A stretch of DNA of 64,000 nucleotides from Microtetraspora niveoalba (lineage in GTDB: Bacteria; Actinomycetota; Actinomycetes; Streptosporangiales; Streptosporangiaceae): positions 62,001 to 126,000 of the forward strand of contig NZ_BBYM01000021.1 in the NCBI RefSeq assembly GCF_001570405.1, read 5' to 3'. A model generated the notes under the pieces. It did not search any database. It had not been told where the DNA came from and was given only the letters and a program-made list of their open reading frames with translations. A program made the translations under genes and the position numbers. Positions 3,139-45,668 of the stretch are shown here, piece after piece. Within the stretch, counting starts at the first letter, position 1. The number at the start of each line of letters is the position of its first letter.

Positions 3139-4415
3139 GCCGCCCCCTGCACGGCCGCGGCACGGCGGCGCAGGACGGCGGGAGCGGTCTCCCGGAGGGA
3201 GAACGAGAGCACGACGACGATCGCCGCGCTGCCTGCCGCGATGAACATCGCGGTCTGCAGGCCCCACAGGTCCGAGGCCCAGCCGGAGATCATCGGGCCG
3301 AGGAAACCGCCGGCCAGCTCGCCCACGCCCATGATCACGCCGAGGGCGGTGGCCAGCGCGCCGGCCGGCACGGTCTCGGCCGGGATCGTCGCCATGAACA
3401 GGGTGAAGCAGCCGAGCCCGGTGTACGTGAGGACCATGAGCACGCCGAGCAGCGTCGGGCTCGACACGAACACGACCGAGAGCGGGCAGAACACGGCGAG
3501 CGTGGTGAAGCCGATCAGCGCGGGCTTCCTGCCGATCCGGTCGGAGATCGCCGGGGTGGCGAAGCCCCAGAGCACCCAGGCCACGCCGAGGCAGGTCATG
3601 ACGCCGCTCATCGTGCCGGGCGCGAAGCCCTTGACGTCGGTCAGGTAGGTGGGGGTGAACGTGATCAGCGTGACGAACCACGTCAGGTAGAAGCAGGCGA
3701 TCAGCATGCAGACCAGCACGTTCCGCAGCTTCAGCACGTCCTTCAGGGCCGGCTTGGGAAGCGCGGGCGCGGCGGCCGCCGCCGCCGGGGCCGGCGGCTT
3801 CTCCCGGACCAGCTTCGCGATCAGCGCGGCGATCACCAGACCGGGGACGATCGTCACGTAGAACGCGGTCTGCCAGCCGTGGTTCTCGGCGAACCAGACC
3901 ACGACGACCGGCGCGACGATGCCGCCGAGGAGGCCGGCCGACGAGCCCTGCAGCAGGCCCATGTTGAGCCCGCGCCTGCTCTCCCGCGACGCCTCGACCA
4001 TCAGGGACTGGGCCATCGGGAGCACCGCGCCCTCCGCCGTGCCCATCAGGGCGCGCGCGGCGAGCAGGCCGCCGAACCCCGCCATGAGGCCGGACGCCGA
4101 GGAGAAGACCGAGAAGAGCACCACGGCGCCGATCAGGATCGGCTTGCGGCGGCCCAGCTTGTCCGACAGGCGTCCGGCGAACATGCCCGCCACCGCCCAG
4201 GTGAGCGCCAGCACACCGGAGAGGGTGCCGAGCTGTCCGTTGGACAGGCCGAAGTCCTTGTCCATGTACGGCGCGAGGAAGGCCAGGGCCTGACGGTCGA
4301 AGAAGACGAAGCCGAAGGCCAGGAAGAGGATGAGGAGCAGGCGGTTCTCGTACCGCTTCGCTTCGCGGTCCGCGACGGCGCCGGGCGACCGTGTGGACGT
4401 CTTGGTGTCAGTCAT
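3135..4415 (-). CDS. MFS transporter
   Basis: 426 aa with about 12 hydrophobic segments. The cytoplasmic loop motif between TM2 and TM3 is GRLSDKLGRRKP, repeated in the second half as SDRIGRKPA, both hallmarks of the major facilitator superfamily. The N-terminus begins FFDRQALAFLAPYMDKDFGLS, like aromatic-acid/anion:proton symporters. It sits between a cupin dioxygenase-like gene (28 bases upstream) and an alcohol dehydrogenase whose start overlaps its stop, so it is probably the uptake system for the operon substrate. A charged alanine/proline-rich loop (about residues 208-225) lies between the two halves. Confidence 0.9.
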   Translation of the reverse strand: MTDTKTSTRSPGAVADREAKRYENRLLLILFLAFGFVFFDRQALAFLAPYMDKDFGLSNGQLGTLSGVLALTWAVAGMFAGRLSDKLGRRKPILIGAVVLFSVFSSASGLMAGFGGLLAARALMGTAEGAVLPMAQSLMVEASRESRRGLNMGLLQGSSAGLLGGIVAPVVVVWFAENHGWQTAFYVTIVPGLVIAALIAKLVREKPPAPAAAAAAPALPKPALKDVLKLRNVLVCMLIACFYLTWFVTLITFTPTYLTDVKGFAPGTMSGVMTCLGVAWVLWGFATPAISDRIGRKPALIGFTTLAVFCPLSVVFVSSPTLLGVLMVLTYTGLGCFTLFMATIPAETVPAGALATALGVIMGVGELAGGFLGPMISGWASDLWGLQTAMFIAAGSAAIVVVLSFSLRETAPAVLRRRAAAVQGAA

Positions 4416-40072: not shown

Positions 40073-40410
40073 TTCGGTGTCCTCCTTGGTTTCGACTGAG
40101 CCGACGCGCGGAGATCCTTTTCCCCGCGCATTCGGTCCTGGTGGGCTGAAGATGACTCACCAAGCATGAACGGGTCAACGAGGTCCGCCGGCTCAGCGGT
40201 TAGGCAAACCCCCAAGCAGGTTGAAGAAAACCACCTGCTGAGGGACGATCCTTAGTCAGCACGTTCAAGCGCCCGCCCTGGCCGCGCAAAATCTGGTCCA
40301 TCATTCATGTGTAGTCGCAGCGCGACAGAGACGTTACGCTGCGTCAGCAGATGAGGACCCTTCGAGATGCGCGGTCGGCACCATCACCCGATCGCGAGAG
40401 AGGGGCCGGA
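40073..40410. promoter_or_regulatory. Divergent regulatory region of XRE-TPR gene
   Basis: 338 bases, AT-richer than its surroundings. It holds an inverted repeat AGCAGGT-N11-ACCTGCT at 40215-40239 that can form a hairpin. A second inverted repeat, CGCAGCG ... CGCTGCG, is at about 40316-40342 and flanks a possible -10 (TTACGCT). These could be operators for the regulator itself. No gene seen. Confidence 0.4.
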
Positions 40411-42036
40411 ATGTCCGGCAGGCAACACAGAGAGACGGAGATCGCGCGGCAGATCCGGGCACGTGGCCTGGCCGCGGGGCGAAGCCTCGCTCTGATCGCC
40501 GACGAGATCCATCTTGCGTGTGGACCGAAGTTCGGCACCACGAAGATCAAAGCGCACCGCCTGTCGAACGGCATCGCACTCGCGGATGTGATCGAGCAGG
40601 TACGGGCGCTATTCGAGCGGGACGGCAAGTCCGTCCCCGGGATCGGCGAGACGCTTCTGTCCGCCTACGAGTCCGGGCTGAAGAAGCCCGGCCCCGAATA
40701 CCTCCACTACCTGTGTTCCGTCTACCGGGTCGAACCGGCCGCTCTCGGCTACGAAGGGCCGTGCATCTGTGGTCATGGCCACGGTATGCCCGGCAATGTC
40801 CGCAGCTGCGATTTCGAAGAGGGAATACCTGACACTTCCCCCAATGTGCGTGAGCTGTGGATACAGCCGGATGGCGGCCCTTCCGCGGACGGGGGCGAGG
40901 AGGACGAGAACGTGCTACGGAGGACGCTGCTGAAGATCCTCACCGTCGGAACCGGCGCTGTGGCGCTGGACGGGCCGATGCTCGGTGCGGTGGAGAACAT
41001 ACGGCGCCACATGGACGAGACGATGGCCTCGGCCACCGTCTCGCCCGCCATGCTGGACCAGTGGGAGGAGACGACCACCGGCTTCGGCAGGCAGTACATG
41101 AACGCCCCGCCGCTGCGTCTGCTCTGCGACGTACTGCTGGAATTCTCCACGGTGCGCAAGGCGATGGAGCGGCGCCAGCCGGTCGACATCCAGGAACGGC
41201 TCTGCCGCATGACGGCCCAGCTCTCCGGGCTCTGCGGCATGATCATGATCGACCTGGGCGACCACCGGATGGCCCGGTCGTTCTTCCGCACCGGGCGCAC
41301 CGCCGCCGACGAGACCGGCGACCGCGCCCTGCGGGCCTGGGTGAGCGCCCGCGAGGCGCTGGTCCCGCTCTACTACGGCGACCCGCGCGAGGCGCTCGCG
41401 CTGGCCAAGAAGAGCCGTGACATGGCGGGGCACACGCCCTGCGCGGCCAAGACCATGGCGCCGGTCGTCGAGGCCAGGGCGCTCGCCATGCTGGCCGGCA
41501 ACGCCGGAGCCAAGAAGGAGGTCGTCGACCAGGCCAAGCGGGCGCTGTCCCGGGCTCGGGCGGCCTTCGCGCAGATGAGCACCAGTGACCAGGAGGACCC
41601 GGCCTTCGGATACACCGAGCGGCAGCTCTACTTCTACCAGGGCGACGTCCTGGTCAAGCTGGGGCAGACGCTGGAGGCGGACGTCATCCTCGAGCAGGCG
41701 CTCGGCAAGTACTCGAACGAGGACCTGCTCGACCAGACCCTGATCCGGTTCGACCGCGCCCAGTGCCGCCTGATCGAGGGCGAGGTCGAGGAGGCGCTCG
41801 ACATGGGCCGCAAGGCCATCGAGCTGATCGAACCCGAATACCGCACCGAGCTGCTCATGCGCCCCGCGCACAACCTGCTCAAGGCGGTCCAGGCGAAGTA
41901 CGGCGAGACGCCCGCGCTGACCGCGTACCGCGAGTGCCTGCAGTCCGCACCCGTGGACACCGAGAGCGCCGCTGCCGCCGCCGCGGCGGCAGCGGCCGCG
42001 ATCGCCGCCATCGAGCGGGACAGGCAGCAGACGTGA
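40411..42036 (+). CDS. XRE-type HTH regulator with C-terminal TPR domain
   Basis: 541 aa. The N-terminal XRE-like HTH region spans about 15-110 (LSAYESGLKKPGPEYLHYLCSVYRV is the recognition end). A Cys/His cluster C118-x-C120-x-H122-x-H124 with another Cys near 137 follows. Then come an Arg-rich/hydrophobic segment RRTLLKILTVGTGAVAL and a long helical TPR-like domain (about 210-510). It ends with an 11-Ala tract. The architecture is the Streptomyces-type XRE-TPR regulator, which may sense a peptide or small ligand through the TPR. ATG 40411 follows GAGAGGGG. Its stop overlaps the GNAT gene start. Confidence 0.82.
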   Translation: MSGRQHRETEIARQIRARGLAAGRSLALIADEIHLACGPKFGTTKIKAHRLSNGIALADVIEQVRALFERDGKSVPGIGETLLSAYESGLKKPGPEYLHYLCSVYRVEPAALGYEGPCICGHGHGMPGNVRSCDFEEGIPDTSPNVRELWIQPDGGPSADGGEEDENVLRRTLLKILTVGTGAVALDGPMLGAVENIRRHMDETMASATVSPAMLDQWEETTTGFGRQYMNAPPLRLLCDVLLEFSTVRKAMERRQPVDIQERLCRMTAQLSGLCGMIMIDLGDHRMARSFFRTGRTAADETGDRALRAWVSAREALVPLYYGDPREALALAKKSRDMAGHTPCAAKTMAPVVEARALAMLAGNAGAKKEVVDQAKRALSRARAAFAQMSTSDQEDPAFGYTERQLYFYQGDVLVKLGQTLEADVILEQALGKYSNEDLLDQTLIRFDRAQCRLIEGEVEEALDMGRKAIELIEPEYRTELLMRPAHNLLKAVQAKYGETPALTAYRECLQSAPVDTESAAAAAAAAAAAIAAIERDRQQT

Positions 42037-42539
42037 CGGAAGACATCCGGATCCGCCGCTACCGCTGGTCTGATCTGGACGAGGTCCTGGCGTTGCACCA
42101 GATCGGCCTCGCCCAGGTCGGACTCATGCCGGGTGACGGCGTCTACTACGACGACGACTTCCCGCGGATCCAGGCGGTGTACCTCGCCGACCGGGGCGAG
42201 TTCCTGGTCGGCGAGGAGCCGGGCGGCGGCCGGATCGTCGCGATGGGCGGCCTGCGCAGGATCGACGACGAGACCGCGGAGATGTGCCGGCTCCGGGTCC
42301 ACCCGGAGTTCCAGCGCCGGGGTTATGGCCGGATGGTCCTCGAACGGCTGGAGGACCGCGCCCGCGAGCTCGGCTACCACGTCCTGCGCGGGGACACCAC
42401 CCTGCAACAGGGAGCCGCGATCGAGCTGTACCGCAGGTACGGCTGGCACGAGGTGCGGCGCGAGACCCGCGGCGGAAGCGTAGTGCTGTACGGGGAGAAA
42501 TACCTTACTCCCGTTGTTTCGCCGCAATTAATCAGATAA
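42033..42539 (+). CDS. GNAT family N-acetyltransferase
   Basis: 168 aa. The acetyl-CoA binding loop is LRVHPEFQRRGYGRMVLERLEDRARELG, preceded by a beta bulge (EMCRLRV), and ends LYRRYGWHEVRRETRGGS. GTG 42033 overlaps the XRE-TPR stop (GTGA), so the two are coupled. The last codons and the following bases are unusually AT-rich. The acceptor is unknown. Confidence 0.87.
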   Translation: MTEDIRIRRYRWSDLDEVLALHQIGLAQVGLMPGDGVYYDDDFPRIQAVYLADRGEFLVGEEPGGGRIVAMGGLRRIDDETAEMCRLRVHPEFQRRGYGRMVLERLEDRARELGYHVLRGDTTLQQGAAIELYRRYGWHEVRRETRGGSVVLYGEKYLTPVVSPQLIR

Positions 42540-42555
42540 ACCACCCTGCCGGGCC

Positions 42556-42585
42556 TTGCGGATTACCGGTTTGTGCCAATACTTA
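42556..42585 (+). promoter_or_regulatory. Candidate promoter before the peptide gene
   Basis: TTGCGG at 42556-42561 and TACTTA at 42580-42585 with an 18-base spacer, in an AT-rich stretch directly after the GNAT gene. The ATG of a basic 34-codon frame is only 10 bases further, which would fit a leaderless start. By eye only. Confidence 0.35.
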
Positions 42586-42594
42586 TTCCTTGTC

Positions 42595-42699
42595 ATGAGC
42601 GGCGAGGGCCGCGGTGAGCGGAGCGGTAGGCGAGGAAAGCCTCCCGTGAAGCGAACGAGGACCCGAGCGCGACCGTGTCACGGAAAAGAGGCACGATGA
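42595..42699 (+). CDS. Possible small basic peptide (34 aa), uncertain
   Basis: The frame starts at ATG 42595, has no ribosome site and encodes an Arg/Lys/Gly-rich peptide (MSGEGRGERSGRRGKPPVKR...). Its TGA overlaps the ATG of the next small frame (ATGA). The position just after a possible -10 and the stop/start overlap favour translation as a leaderless leader peptide. The codon third-position bias is weak, so it may be chance. Confidence 0.25.
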   Translation: MSGEGRGERSGRRGKPPVKRTRTRARPCHGKEAR

Positions 42700-42770
42700 A
42701 AAAGATCATTATCCGCAAGCCCGGCACGGTGCGGCTCACCGGAACGTCGAGCGTGATTCACAAAGGGTGA
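42696..42770 (+). CDS. 24-aa peptide gene coupled to TPR protein
   Basis: ATG 42696 has AAAAGAGG 4 bases upstream. The peptide begins MKKIIIRKPGTVRL and continues with a Thr/Ser-rich TGTSS core and ends VIHKG. Its TGA (42768-42770) overlaps the GTG start of the TPR gene (42767), a coupled arrangement unlikely by chance. The codon bias (about 80% G/C at third position) is host-like. The beta-strand-like basic N-terminus and Ser/Thr-containing end recall a RiPP leader/core or a signalling peptide. I do not recognise the family, and no modifying enzyme is adjacent. Confidence 0.6.
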   Translation: MKKIIIRKPGTVRLTGTSSVIHKG

Positions 42771-44749
42771 CCTGGAGCCCTCGGCGGAACGTACGCCATG
42801 TCTGGGTCCAGGGAAGGCATTCCCGTGATCGCCTGGCCGCGCTCCACGTGCTGGAGCTTCCTCCGCCCGCGGCGCCGCTGATCAACGGGCATCGGCGGCT
42901 GCGCGGCCCCTACACCATCGGCGGCGCACTGCTGCGCGTGCTCGTCCCGGCCGCGTTGGAACACGCCCCCGACCTGGTCGCCGCGCACGCCGTCGCGATC
43001 CGGGCGGCCGCCCCCGACCTCCGGCCGCTCCTGCCGCACCGAGAGGAGCCCCTCGGCCCGGGCCTGCACGAGGACGAGCGCATCCTGGTGCCGGCCCCCC
43101 GGCGGACGTTGCGCGTCGCCAACGGCATCGCCGAGTTCGTCCGGGACCGCCTCGACGGGCCGCGCGCGCTGCGGGTCGAGAACGTCCACGAGGCCGACGC
43201 CACCGACCGCGAGCTCCTGGCCGTCCTCATGCGCCGGGTGCCCGGCCTGACCGTGGCCGCCGCGGCGCCCACACCGCCCGATAGCTGGAGCGGCGAGGAC
43301 GTCGTCCTGGTCACGGCGCCTCCCGCCGAGGGCCCGGTCGAGGACTACGTCGCCTCGGACGGCACCACGGACGACCCCCGGGCGTACGCGGCCTATCTGG
43401 CGCTGCCGCCCGCCGAGCGGGCCCGCGCGCACGACCGGAGGGCCGGCGAGCTGTCCGGCGAGCACCTGCTCGGTGCGGTGCCGTACCACCGGGAGCTGGG
43501 CGGCGACCGGGAGGCCGCGCTGTCCGCGCTGTGGGCGGCGGTGGACCACTGCGTGGGCGAGGGGTTCCTGCACGCGGTGACCGAGCTGGGCCCGCGCGGG
43601 CTGCGCCTGGCCACGCCCGGATCCGACCTCTGGTGGAGGTTCATCCACCGGACGGCCACCGCGCTGGCCGGGATCGGCCGCCGCGCGGAGGCGTTCGAGC
43701 TCTACGAGAGCGCCCGGCGCGCCAGCATCGACCCGGCCGTCCACGCCGCCGCCGCGTACGGCACGGCGATGCTCGACGCGCGCGACCCCGATCCGGCCAG
43801 GCGCGACCTCGGCCGTGCCATGGGGTGGATCAACGAGGCGATCGCCGTCTCCACTCTGCTGCCCGACCGCCGGGAACGGGCCTTCAAGCTCGGCTTCGAC
43901 CGCAACGGGCGCGCGCTGATCGAGCTGCGGCAGGGGCGGACCGACGAGGCGCTGCGCCTGGTCGAGTCCGCGATCGAGCTGGCCGAGCGGGACCTCGCCC
44001 CCGATGCCCACCCCCTGCACCGGATGGTGCTGTTCGCCAACCGGGCGCAGCTCCTGGCCCGGTCGGGCCGGCCCGCCGAGGCCCTGACGGACTTCGACCG
44101 GGCCATCGCCATCGATCCCGCGTTCCCGGACCACTACCTGGACCGGGGCAACCTGCTCCTCGCCATGGGACGGCCGGATGACGCGCTCGCCGACTACGAG
44201 ACCGCGATCAGTCTCGGCCCGCCCCTTCCCGAGGCGTACTACAACCGGGCCGAGCTGCGCCTGTCGGTGGGAGACCTGGAACGCGCCCTGGCCGACCTGG
44301 ACCACGTTCTGGAACTGGACCCGGCCTTCCTCGACGCCTACGTGAACCGCGCGGGCGTCCTGGAGATGCTCGACGAGCACGAGGCGGCCCGGCGCGACGT
44401 CGAGGCCGGGCTGGAGATCGATCCCGGCAACCCGCACCTGCACGGGGTGCTCGGGCAGCTCGAAACCGCGGCCGGCCGGTACGCCGAGGCCCGGACGGCG
44501 TTCGACACGGCGCTGGCGCGGGATCCCGCCCTGGCCGGAGCCTGGGCGAACCGGGCGATCCTGCGCCATCGGACCGGCGACCTCGAGGGCGCCGTCGCGG
44601 ACCTGACCCGGGCCATCGAACTCGGCGAGGACGCCGCGCTGTACGCGAACCGCGCGGTCGCGTTGCGCGACCTCGGCCGGGTGGACGAGGCGGCCGCCGA
44701 TCTGGCCCGGGCGCGGGAACTCGATCCCGGCGTCGACGCGGGGAACTGA
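42767..44749 (+). CDS. TPR protein with degenerate AAA/STAND-like N-terminus
   Basis: 660 aa from a GTG overlapping the peptide gene stop. The N-terminal part (about 1-160) starts VTWSPRRNVRHVWVQ and contains LRVENVHEADATDRELLAVLMRRVPGLTV. This resembles the Walker B region of LuxR/STAND ATPases (LVVDDAHWAD type), but no Walker A is present. Residues about 205-265 look like the post-ATPase helical region (LPPAERARAHDRRAGELSGEHLLGAVPYH). About eight TPR units fill 290-655 (for example PEALTDFDRAIAIDPAFPDHYLDRGNLLLAMGR in parts). It has no HTH domain, so it is probably a binding scaffold or sensor for the coupled peptide (inference). Confidence 0.8.
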   Translation: MTWSPRRNVRHVWVQGRHSRDRLAALHVLELPPPAAPLINGHRRLRGPYTIGGALLRVLVPAALEHAPDLVAAHAVAIRAAAPDLRPLLPHREEPLGPGLHEDERILVPAPRRTLRVANGIAEFVRDRLDGPRALRVENVHEADATDRELLAVLMRRVPGLTVAAAAPTPPDSWSGEDVVLVTAPPAEGPVEDYVASDGTTDDPRAYAAYLALPPAERARAHDRRAGELSGEHLLGAVPYHRELGGDREAALSALWAAVDHCVGEGFLHAVTELGPRGLRLATPGSDLWWRFIHRTATALAGIGRRAEAFELYESARRASIDPAVHAAAAYGTAMLDARDPDPARRDLGRAMGWINEAIAVSTLLPDRRERAFKLGFDRNGRALIELRQGRTDEALRLVESAIELAERDLAPDAHPLHRMVLFANRAQLLARSGRPAEALTDFDRAIAIDPAFPDHYLDRGNLLLAMGRPDDALADYETAISLGPPLPEAYYNRAELRLSVGDLERALADLDHVLELDPAFLDAYVNRAGVLEMLDEHEAARRDVEAGLEIDPGNPHLHGVLGQLETAAGRYAEARTAFDTALARDPALAGAWANRAILRHRTGDLEGAVADLTRAIELGEDAALYANRAVALRDLGRVDEAAADLARARELDPGVDAGN

Positions 44750-44819: not shown

Positions 44820-45668
44820 ATGACTGCTGACTATGTGCTGACCCTCTCCTGTCCGGATCGTCCCGGCGTCGTCGCCGCCGTCTCGGGACTGCTGGCCGGA
44901 CACGGTTGCAACATCACCGAGAGCCAGCAGTTCGGCGACCCGGTGGCCAAGCGCTTCTTCATGCGGGTCCAGTTCACCGGCGGTCTGCCGCTCGACGATC
45001 TGCGCGCGGCCTTCGCCGCGCTGGCCCCCGAGTACGGCATGGACGTCCAGCTCTTCGACCAGGCGGTCAAGCCGCGGGTGCTGGTGCTGGTCAGCAAGTT
45101 CGACCACTGCCTCAACGACCTGCTCTACCGGGTGCGGTCCGGGCTGCTGGACATCGAGATCGTCGCCGTCGCCTCCAACCACCCCGACCTGCGGCCGCTC
45201 ACCCAGTCGTACGGCATCGACTATCACCACCTGCCGATCACGCCGGAGACCAAGCCGCAGCAGGAGGCCGAGATCCTCGCGCTGGTCGCGCACTACCAGG
45301 CCGACCTGGTGGTGCTCGCCCGGTACATGCAGGTGCTCTCCGAGGACCTGTGCGCCAAGCTGGCGGGCCGAGTGATCAACATCCACCACTCGTTCCTGCC
45401 GTCGTTCAAGGGCGCCAAGCCGTACCACCAGGCGTACGCGCGCGGGGTCAAGCTGATCGGCGCGACCGCCCACTATGTGACCCACGACCTGGACGAGGGG
45501 CCGATCATCGAGCAGGAGGTCGCGCGGGTCAACCACACCCACTCGCCCGAGGACCTCGCCGCGATCGGCCGCGACGTCGAGCGGCAGGCCCTGGCCCGGG
45601 CAGTACGGTGGCACGCCGAGCGCCGGGTGCTGCTCGACGGCCACAAGACCGTGGTCTTCCCCCGATAG
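44820..45668 (+). CDS. purU: Formyltetrahydrofolate deformylase
   Basis: 282 aa, the family length. An N-terminal ACT domain (about 4-80, VLTLSCPDRPGVVAAVSGLLAGHGCNI in part) is followed by the formyltransferase-like domain. That domain has INIHHSFLPSFKGAKPYHQAY, holding the catalytic Asn/His pair, and THDLDEGPIIEQ with the catalytic Asp. PurU releases formate from 10-formyl-THF to balance the one-carbon pool and supply purine synthesis. ATG 44820 has a weak AAGG site; the family start fits. Confidence 0.95.
   Translation: MTADYVLTLSCPDRPGVVAAVSGLLAGHGCNITESQQFGDPVAKRFFMRVQFTGGLPLDDLRAAFAALAPEYGMDVQLFDQAVKPRVLVLVSKFDHCLNDLLYRVRSGLLDIEIVAVASNHPDLRPLTQSYGIDYHHLPITPETKPQQEAEILALVAHYQADLVVLARYMQVLSEDLCAKLAGRVINIHHSFLPSFKGAKPYHQAYARGVKLIGATAHYVTHDLDEGPIIEQEVARVNHTHSPEDLAAIGRDVERQALARAVRWHAERRVLLDGHKTVVFPR

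Follow-up and report, generated by a model that had tools for sequence, protein, structure and literature searches.

Within the window, a 64,000-nucleotide stretch of the Microtetraspora niveoalba genome (contig NZ_BBYM01000021.1, positions 62,001 to 126,000 of the forward strand), a 24-codon peptide gene runs into the gene for a 660-residue tetratricopeptide repeat (TPR) protein. We refer to residues 1-15 of the peptide, MKKIIIRKPGTVRLT, as its leader and to residues 16-24 as its tail. A leader of the same kind begins the precursor peptides of a cassette found across the Actinomycetes, in which one or more precursor genes are followed by genes for an HExxH membrane protein and a TPR protein of the same family as that in the window. 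Our preferred account, held with somewhat more belief than doubt, is that the window peptide is a precursor of the ribosomally synthesized and post-translationally modified peptide (RiPP) type, retained without the protease and serving inside the cell as a co-translated ligand of a TPR superhelix resembling that of OGT.

The peptide frame is a real, translated and selected gene that is conserved in the Streptosporangiaceae. A first-pass annotation made from the letters alone had described a 24-codon frame whose stop overlaps a GTG start, and this was borne out: the TGA of the peptide gene shares four nucleotides (GTGA) with the GTG of the 660-residue frame. TPR relatives were found in 70 of 150 Streptosporangiaceae genomes searched, with 109 places listed at E ≤ 1 × 10-60; 91 of these were examined (30 loci, another 60, and L009) by scanning the upstream DNA with a sliding 24-residue window. 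The conserved short frame that the annotation had suggested looking for ahead of TPR homologues is present at 75 of the 91 loci, 44 of them in a group that we call clade 1 and 31 in clade 2. Similarity scores of the peptide frames range from 68 to 123, while no other listed window exceeds 33. The frame is almost always 24 codons long (23 in L090 and L094, 25 in L061), and the clade-1 peptides end in HKG. The other 16 loci comprise nine with an HExxH gene in front, three resembling the TPR locus on contig C10 of M. niveoalba, and four with neither.

Purifying selection on the peptide, also proposed as a check, is evident in the ratio of nonsynonymous to synonymous differences (pN/pS), which is 0.26 for 36 distinct clade-1 DNA sequences and 0.45 for 29 distinct sequences of clade 2. 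Majority-base frequencies in clade 1 are 0.91, 0.91 and 0.72 at the first, second and third codon positions; three flanking stretches give 0.37, 0.51 and 0.61. An in-frame start codon overlaps the peptide stop in 42 of the 44 clade-1 loci (41 GTG, one TTG) and in seven of the 31 clade-2 loci. The M. niveoalba genome (8.47 Mb, 98 contigs) itself carries a TPR paralogue on contig C3, after a gene that we take to be ftsY-like, and this paralogue is preceded by MKKVVVHKPGTVQLSGQASAKHHA, also of 24 residues. A third relative, on contig C10, is preceded by MKKMTVRRNSTLRLLSGARRLWFEWCW. At L011 (4105-4188, minus strand), L099 and L100 the third TPR paralogue, about 41% identical, has ahead of it a frame of 27 residues that starts like the leader and whose end is aromatic (..LLSGARRLWFEWCW); no HExxH gene is among those called in L011.

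The link to other precursors came from a profile (A1) built of the 24-mers alone, which matched in 17 of 296 genomes of the class. Besides family members and three chance-like matches in long frames, it found four short ones that have residues 1-15 in common with the 24-mers and different ends: L117 (leader MKKIVVRKPGTVRLT, tail AMACYCYGCCCCGGRAAI), L129 (leader MKKIKIRKAGPVRLT, tail AAACSIYKNPN), L103 (leader MKKITVRKAGSVRLT, tail ANANSLYAPFSCWPF) and L118 (leader MKKIKVRKAGTVRLT, tail TSAAIYATPLCWPV). The matches G653, G702 and G766 (E 0.001-0.006), in frames of 448, 95 and 88 residues, were read as chance, as were partial matches in G423 and G394 from the phylum sample, which were set aside. 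Downstream of each of the four frames lies a gene for an HExxH membrane protein and then the start of a window-like TPR protein. Relatives of the L118 HExxH protein at E ≤ 1 × 10-50 occur in exactly those four of the 296 genomes, one of which is the source of the query.

This arrangement, which we call cassette B, is well supported as a unit of precursor or precursors, RRE-like/HExxH membrane protein and TPR protein across the Actinomycetes. Searching the named genome collection with seven HExxH proteins gave 109 relatives, and the best 80 of the 109 loci were analysed. A TPR relative lies downstream on the same strand in all 80 (tblastn; the weakest match scores 89.7 bits and the next 296). 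With a loose pattern, a leader-type frame was found upstream of the HExxH gene in 78 of the 80 (L195 and L199 being without one); a strict pattern yielded 90 frames in 75 loci, corresponding to 74 distinct precursors, in which K2, R7 and T15 are invariant. The genera include Streptomyces, Kitasatospora, Lentzea, Actinokineospora, Nocardia, Micromonospora, Streptosporangium, Sphaerisporangium and Planobispora. By the loose pattern, arrays of precursors with differing tails stand upstream of the HExxH gene in L193 (eight frames; Phytomonospora endophytica) and L211 (six frames; Candidatus Stackebrandtia excrementipullorum). We found no description of the cassette in the literature searched, in which subscription papers were thinly covered, so that an earlier report is possible; the precursor group is apparently undescribed.

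Two further kinds of gene recur in cassette-B loci, flavin reductases in 34 of the 80 (PF01613 in three checked) and SARP-type regulators in 40 of the 80; they are possible accessory genes of the cassette. In L155, L193 and L204, flavin-reductase genes (PF01613) follow the TPR gene and SARP-type regulators are near. Neither kind was matched in 75 stretches from peptide-only (A) loci, a weak control because most of these stretches end soon after the TPR gene.

The peptides of the A loci and of cassette B agree in their leaders and differ in their tails. At 45-60% TPR identity, the leaders of cassette B are 0.76 identical and the tails 0.25. The corresponding values are 0.66 and 0.76 in clade 1 (last five residues, 0.84) and 0.59 and 0.52 in clade 2. 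The window peptide is identical to the 74 distinct cassette-B leaders at 10 to 13 of 15 positions, with a mean of 11.4. The 23 distinct A tails are all without an aromatic residue and all contain His, with Cys in one, whereas Cys and an aromatic residue occur together in the tails of all 74 distinct cassette-B precursors (71 distinct tails) and His in nine of the 71. The cassette-B precursors thus have what is looked for in a RiPP precursor, a conserved leader and a variable core. The window peptide has the conserved leader; it has no variable, modifiable core, the clade-1 tail being more conserved than the leader, and no protease or modifying enzyme is encoded next to it. We saw neither a protease gene nor an exporter gene next to the window pair, whose neighbours are the NsdA-family, GNAT-like and purU-like genes of Table 1. 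The suggestion of a minimal RiPP-like system was close: the leader is that of a RiPP-like precursor family in whose clusters genes for an RRE-like/HExxH protein and a TPR protein of the window's family are also found.

A tree was made from 79 TPR sequences sampled from 158 collected frames less two; cassette-B frames that began too early, their starts having been chosen by pattern, were cut at the GPY motif. The peptide-only TPR proteins of clades 1 and 2 form one clade (Shimodaira-Hasegawa-like approximate likelihood ratio test, 99) beside the cassette-B and C-type sequences. The joining of group C with L158 and L165, where long branches meet, was not used.

The 660-residue protein carries a TPR superhelix that is a plausible peptide binder. 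Pfam assigns it TPR families and a few TPR-like models, confirming the annotated TPR array, and the AlphaFold2 model (predicted local distance difference test, pLDDT, 95.1; predicted template modelling score 0.92) replaces the "about eight units" of that annotation with about 11 helical hairpins. The best Foldseek matches of the model are TPR superhelices, with OGT first (7ntf, 1w3b, 6eou). Across 57 aligned sequences of both kinds, Asn stands without exception at N380, N425, N493 and N628; N356 is kept in 55 and N527 in 52, and in several repeats the conserved Asn sits at position 6 of helix A. In OGT, an Asn ladder at this helix-A position contacts the backbone of the bound substrate (PMC5967971). 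The window protein resembles OGT in its superhelix fold and in the conserved helix-A Asn of its family; it differs in having an AAA-like N-terminus instead of a glycosyltransferase domain. By this analogy, the earlier suggestion that the array is a peptide receptor is plausible.

The N-terminal domain is harder to name. Its modelled strands span residues 11-15, 133-138, 161-167 and 179-183, and D147, R156 and R157 are invariant in 57 TPR-protein sequences. The Walker-B-like stretch reported earlier is there (LRVENVHEAD), and a recognisable AAA domain is not: Pfam gives no AAA or NTPase match for the window protein, and AAA_16 appears in the relative L193 at E 0.083 only. The label "degenerate AAA" therefore rests on pattern and model. 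An ATPase function was considered and rejected, there being no recognisable NTPase domain.

Four features lead us to call the cassette-B HExxH protein site-2-protease-like (M50-like): the HExxH is invariant, a DG motif lies distal to it, some of the helices are membrane-like, and distant HExxH relatives in the M. niveoalba genome match Pfam M50 below threshold. In an alignment of 30 HExxH proteins, H168, E169, H172 and D222 are invariant; those of L117 and L118, the two that were scanned, match nothing in NCBIfam or Pfam at E ≤ 1. The AlphaFold2 model (pLDDT 86.5) starts with three strands and three helices. Foldseek matched this N-terminal part to TbiB1 with its bound leader peptide (5v1v; probability 0.90, E 0.73, root-mean-square deviation, rmsd, 5.4) and with TbiB1 5v1u (probability 0.85, E 2.3, rmsd 2.7), and a profile search of PDB sequences returned TfuB1 (6jx3) alone, at E 0.24. 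TbiB1 and TfuB1 are, we assume, RiPP recognition elements (RREs) of lasso-peptide systems. Two methods, each weak by its own statistics, agree in pointing to an RRE of the lasso kind, and the modelled N-terminus is weakly indicated to be RRE-like, with a putative leader-binding role. The cassette-B domain would resemble the lasso RREs in fold, at these weak E-values, and is unlike them in being fused to a membrane HExxH protein and in facing another leader. The whole model had no Foldseek match at E 0.001, and beyond the N-terminal domain there was no credible match, mostly low-probability TRPV.

On the account we prefer, the window peptide would descend in common with the cassette-B precursors, the shared leader being MKKIxVRKxGxVRLT. 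In cassette B, the RRE and the TPR superhelix probably hold the leader while the HExxH protein would free the variable tail with its Cys and aromatic residues. The window lineage (Streptosporangiaceae, two paralogous loci) has no adjoining protease, which was presumably lost rather than never possessed; its tail is without aromatics and nearly always without Cys, and in clade 1 it is nearly invariant. Since the leader persists here with no RRE protein adjoining, its likeliest reader is the TPR protein. The overlap of stop and start means that the peptide is available while the TPR protein is made, and coupled translation would produce it just ahead of its partner. It most likely remains cytoplasmic, and may sit extended in the Asn-lined TPR channel, filling it and stabilising or switching the scaffold. 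The simplest account of the window pair is that of a reduced RiPP-like cassette, with leader and TPR protein kept and protease and Cys/aromatic core gone.

Several observations weigh against this account. The clade-2 tails are laxer, with only 0.39 identity over the last five residues at 45-60% TPR identity, and the clade-2 peptide gene is often 50-600 nt ahead of the aligned TPR start, so coupling is not general. Because the TPR tree was rooted by midpoint, it does not establish in which direction the change went. All three E-values of the RRE match are weak, and three distant HExxH relatives in the M. niveoalba genome could act in trans. Four TPR genes of A type by BLAST (L060, L084, L093 and L098) have no peptide frame. 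The leader-type frames with A-like tails at L108 (1501-1590) and L128 (minus strand) have no TPR gene within the 1.5 kb fetched downstream. At L060, near a contig end, the site of the peptide gene is occupied by a frame that is presumably transposase-like.

A broader formulation, for which we would claim slightly less than an even chance, is that the leader, the RRE-HExxH protein and a degenerate-AAA/TPR escort define an undescribed RiPP-like class, whose precursor was domesticated once in the Streptosporangiaceae and duplicated to the NsdA/GNAT-linked and ftsY-linked loci as an obligate intracellular subunit of the TPR protein. An overlooked 24-codon gene is in any case tied to a widespread, apparently undescribed cassette of precursor, protease and TPR protein. 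If the formulation is true, genome mining gains a new RiPP-like class with a leader that can be recognised, degenerate-AAA/TPR proteins gain a candidate role as peptide escorts, and there is an example of a peptide precursor that became an internal ligand.

The retained leader, and three distant HExxH relatives in the M. niveoalba genome (L133, L134 and L135) with ThiF-family genes near them, would also fit a peptide that continues to serve as a RiPP-like or signal precursor: another HExxH/RRE-type protein of the genome would cleave it in trans and the tail GTSSVIHKG would be exported as a conserved signal, which the conservation of the tail would suit. We consider this unlikely. The three, the genome's only HExxH relatives, lie on other contigs and have just 30-35% identity to the cassette-B protein. 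Neither an exporter nor a protease gene was seen next to the pair, and the A tails are without the aromatic residue found in all the cassette-B tails, Cys being present in a single one. The three loci (C32, C36 and C11, respectively) may themselves be of RiPP type: each has a ThiF-family gene (PF00899), adjacent in L133 and L135 and with one gene between in L134; two of their HExxH membrane proteins were scanned and gave sub-threshold Pfam M50 matches.

The tight overlap in clade 1 suits a different idea, that translation of the frame, by coupling or stalling, determines how much TPR protein is made, the peptide having no further role; conservation of the amino acids could then reflect stalling. 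A fixed position directly before the regulated gene is found in clade 1 (42 of 44) and not in clade 2 or cassette B: in 24 of 31 clade-2 loci the frame stops well short of the TPR gene, without an in-frame overlap, while in cassette B a whole HExxH gene intervenes and several precursors may follow one another (L193, L211). An Rfam search of positions 42400-42900 gave nothing at E ≤ 1, and hence no known RNA element. We regard this idea as rather improbable, a shade more so than cleavage in trans.

A TPR protein encoded beside a small peptide gene, with an NsdA-family regulator near, also recalls the RRNPP quorum-sensing pairs, in which the peptide is secreted, re-imported and bound by its TPR receptor. 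In RRNPP systems the peptide gene comes after the receptor gene; in the window it comes before. Pfam shows no helix-turn-helix (HTH) on the 660-residue protein, and on reading the 24-mer has no long hydrophobic or export-signal segment. The window pair is like the RRNPP receptors in the adjacency of peptide and TPR protein, and unlike them in the missing HTH and export signal. With no protease or exporter gene seen adjacent either, a secreted signal is not supported as the form of the peptide signalling that the first-pass annotation thought possible, and we give a pair of RRNPP kind little credence. A chance frame, which would fit a short frame without a Pfam match (window peptide) or NCBIfam match (five peptides scanned), is already contradicted by conservation at 75 of 91 loci, the codon-phase signature and the homologous 24-mer before the TPR paralogue of the same genome, and has next to no probability.

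An internal TPR ligand derived from a RiPP-type precursor, as we prefer to read the window peptide, can be set against known systems through cassette B. The daptides also have an HExxH intramembrane metalloprotease in a RiPP cluster (NF041824, daptide_HExxH), with other precursors and gene content than cassette B; two cassette-B HExxH proteins scanned had no match to NF041824 at E ≤ 1, and L134 matched at 1.2 × 10-6 (27.9 bits, against a cut-off of 300). M50-type proteases free the products of the epipeptide and pearlin pathways (PMC10885120). Epipeptides (EpeP/YydH) and pearlins (TglG, TmoG) resemble cassette B in the short precursor with a membrane HExxH protein beside it. They differ in that cassette B has a TPR partner and the window pair no protease gene; neither a radical SAM epimerase nor a peptide aminoacyl-tRNA ligase was noticed in the gene calls of the eight cassette-B loci inspected. 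In TMcin, the S2P-clan protease TmcP, with its escort TmcE, removes the leader (PMC13252029), and this intramembrane HExxH leader removal with an escort is a model for cassette B. TMcin differs in its precursors, which carry a transmembrane helix, in its host, Staphylococcus, and in its escort, a membrane protein and not a TPR protein.

The features of the window that bear on the system are collected in Table 1.

Table 1. Features around the peptide gene, in window coordinates
Feature	Coordinates	Strand	Basis or remark
24-codon peptide gene MKKIIIRKPGTVRLTGTSSVIHKG + TGA stop	42696..42770	+	residues 1-15 leader-like, 16-24 tail
GTGA overlap of peptide stop and TPR-protein start	42767..42770	+	4 nt
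660-residue protein, TPR superhelix, the peptide's putative partner	42767..44749	+	Pfam TPR families; AlphaFold2; fold matches
N-terminal alpha/beta domain, residues 1-205, read as degenerate AAA/STAND-like	42767..43381	+	
TPR superhelix, residues 248-652, about 11 helical hairpins, Asn ladder	43508..44722	+	
NsdA-family TPR-like regulator	40351..42036	+	NF053720, 147.8 bits, cut-off 75
GNAT-like gene	42033..42539	+	GNAT matches below cut-off only; synteny
purU-like gene (name presumed), downstream	44820..45668	+	found in 22 of 44 clade-1 stretches as fetched
85-bp repeat insert, TGTCA-flanked	42596..42680	.	5' region; not part of the system

The XRE-TPR regulator and GNAT gene noted upstream by the annotation are both there, the former as an NsdA-family protein above its cut-off and the latter as a GNAT-like gene below it; NsdA and/or GNAT precede the pair in 41 of the 44 clade-1 loci. 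In clade 2, ftsY was found in 11 of 31 stretches as fetched.

A second, more doubtful 34-codon frame (42595-42699) had also been annotated. We reject it as a gene, for it lies almost wholly within the 85-bp insert. In an alignment with four close relatives, the window, L013 and L014 carry this insert, and L015 and L016 do not. The ATG of the frame arises at the left edge of the insert and needs it, and the frame is therefore not conserved. TGTCA stands at the left edge and at the right end of the insert. Three more copies of the repeat, 88% identical, lie in tandem on contig C15 (L010, 3630-3889, minus strand), adjoining a stretch that resembles a thiamine pyrophosphate (TPP) riboswitch (3559-3641; 27.6 bits, E 0.0045, under the Rfam gathering score of 54.3). 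By eye, these copies seem to split the TPP aptamer ahead of a thiamine gene cluster.

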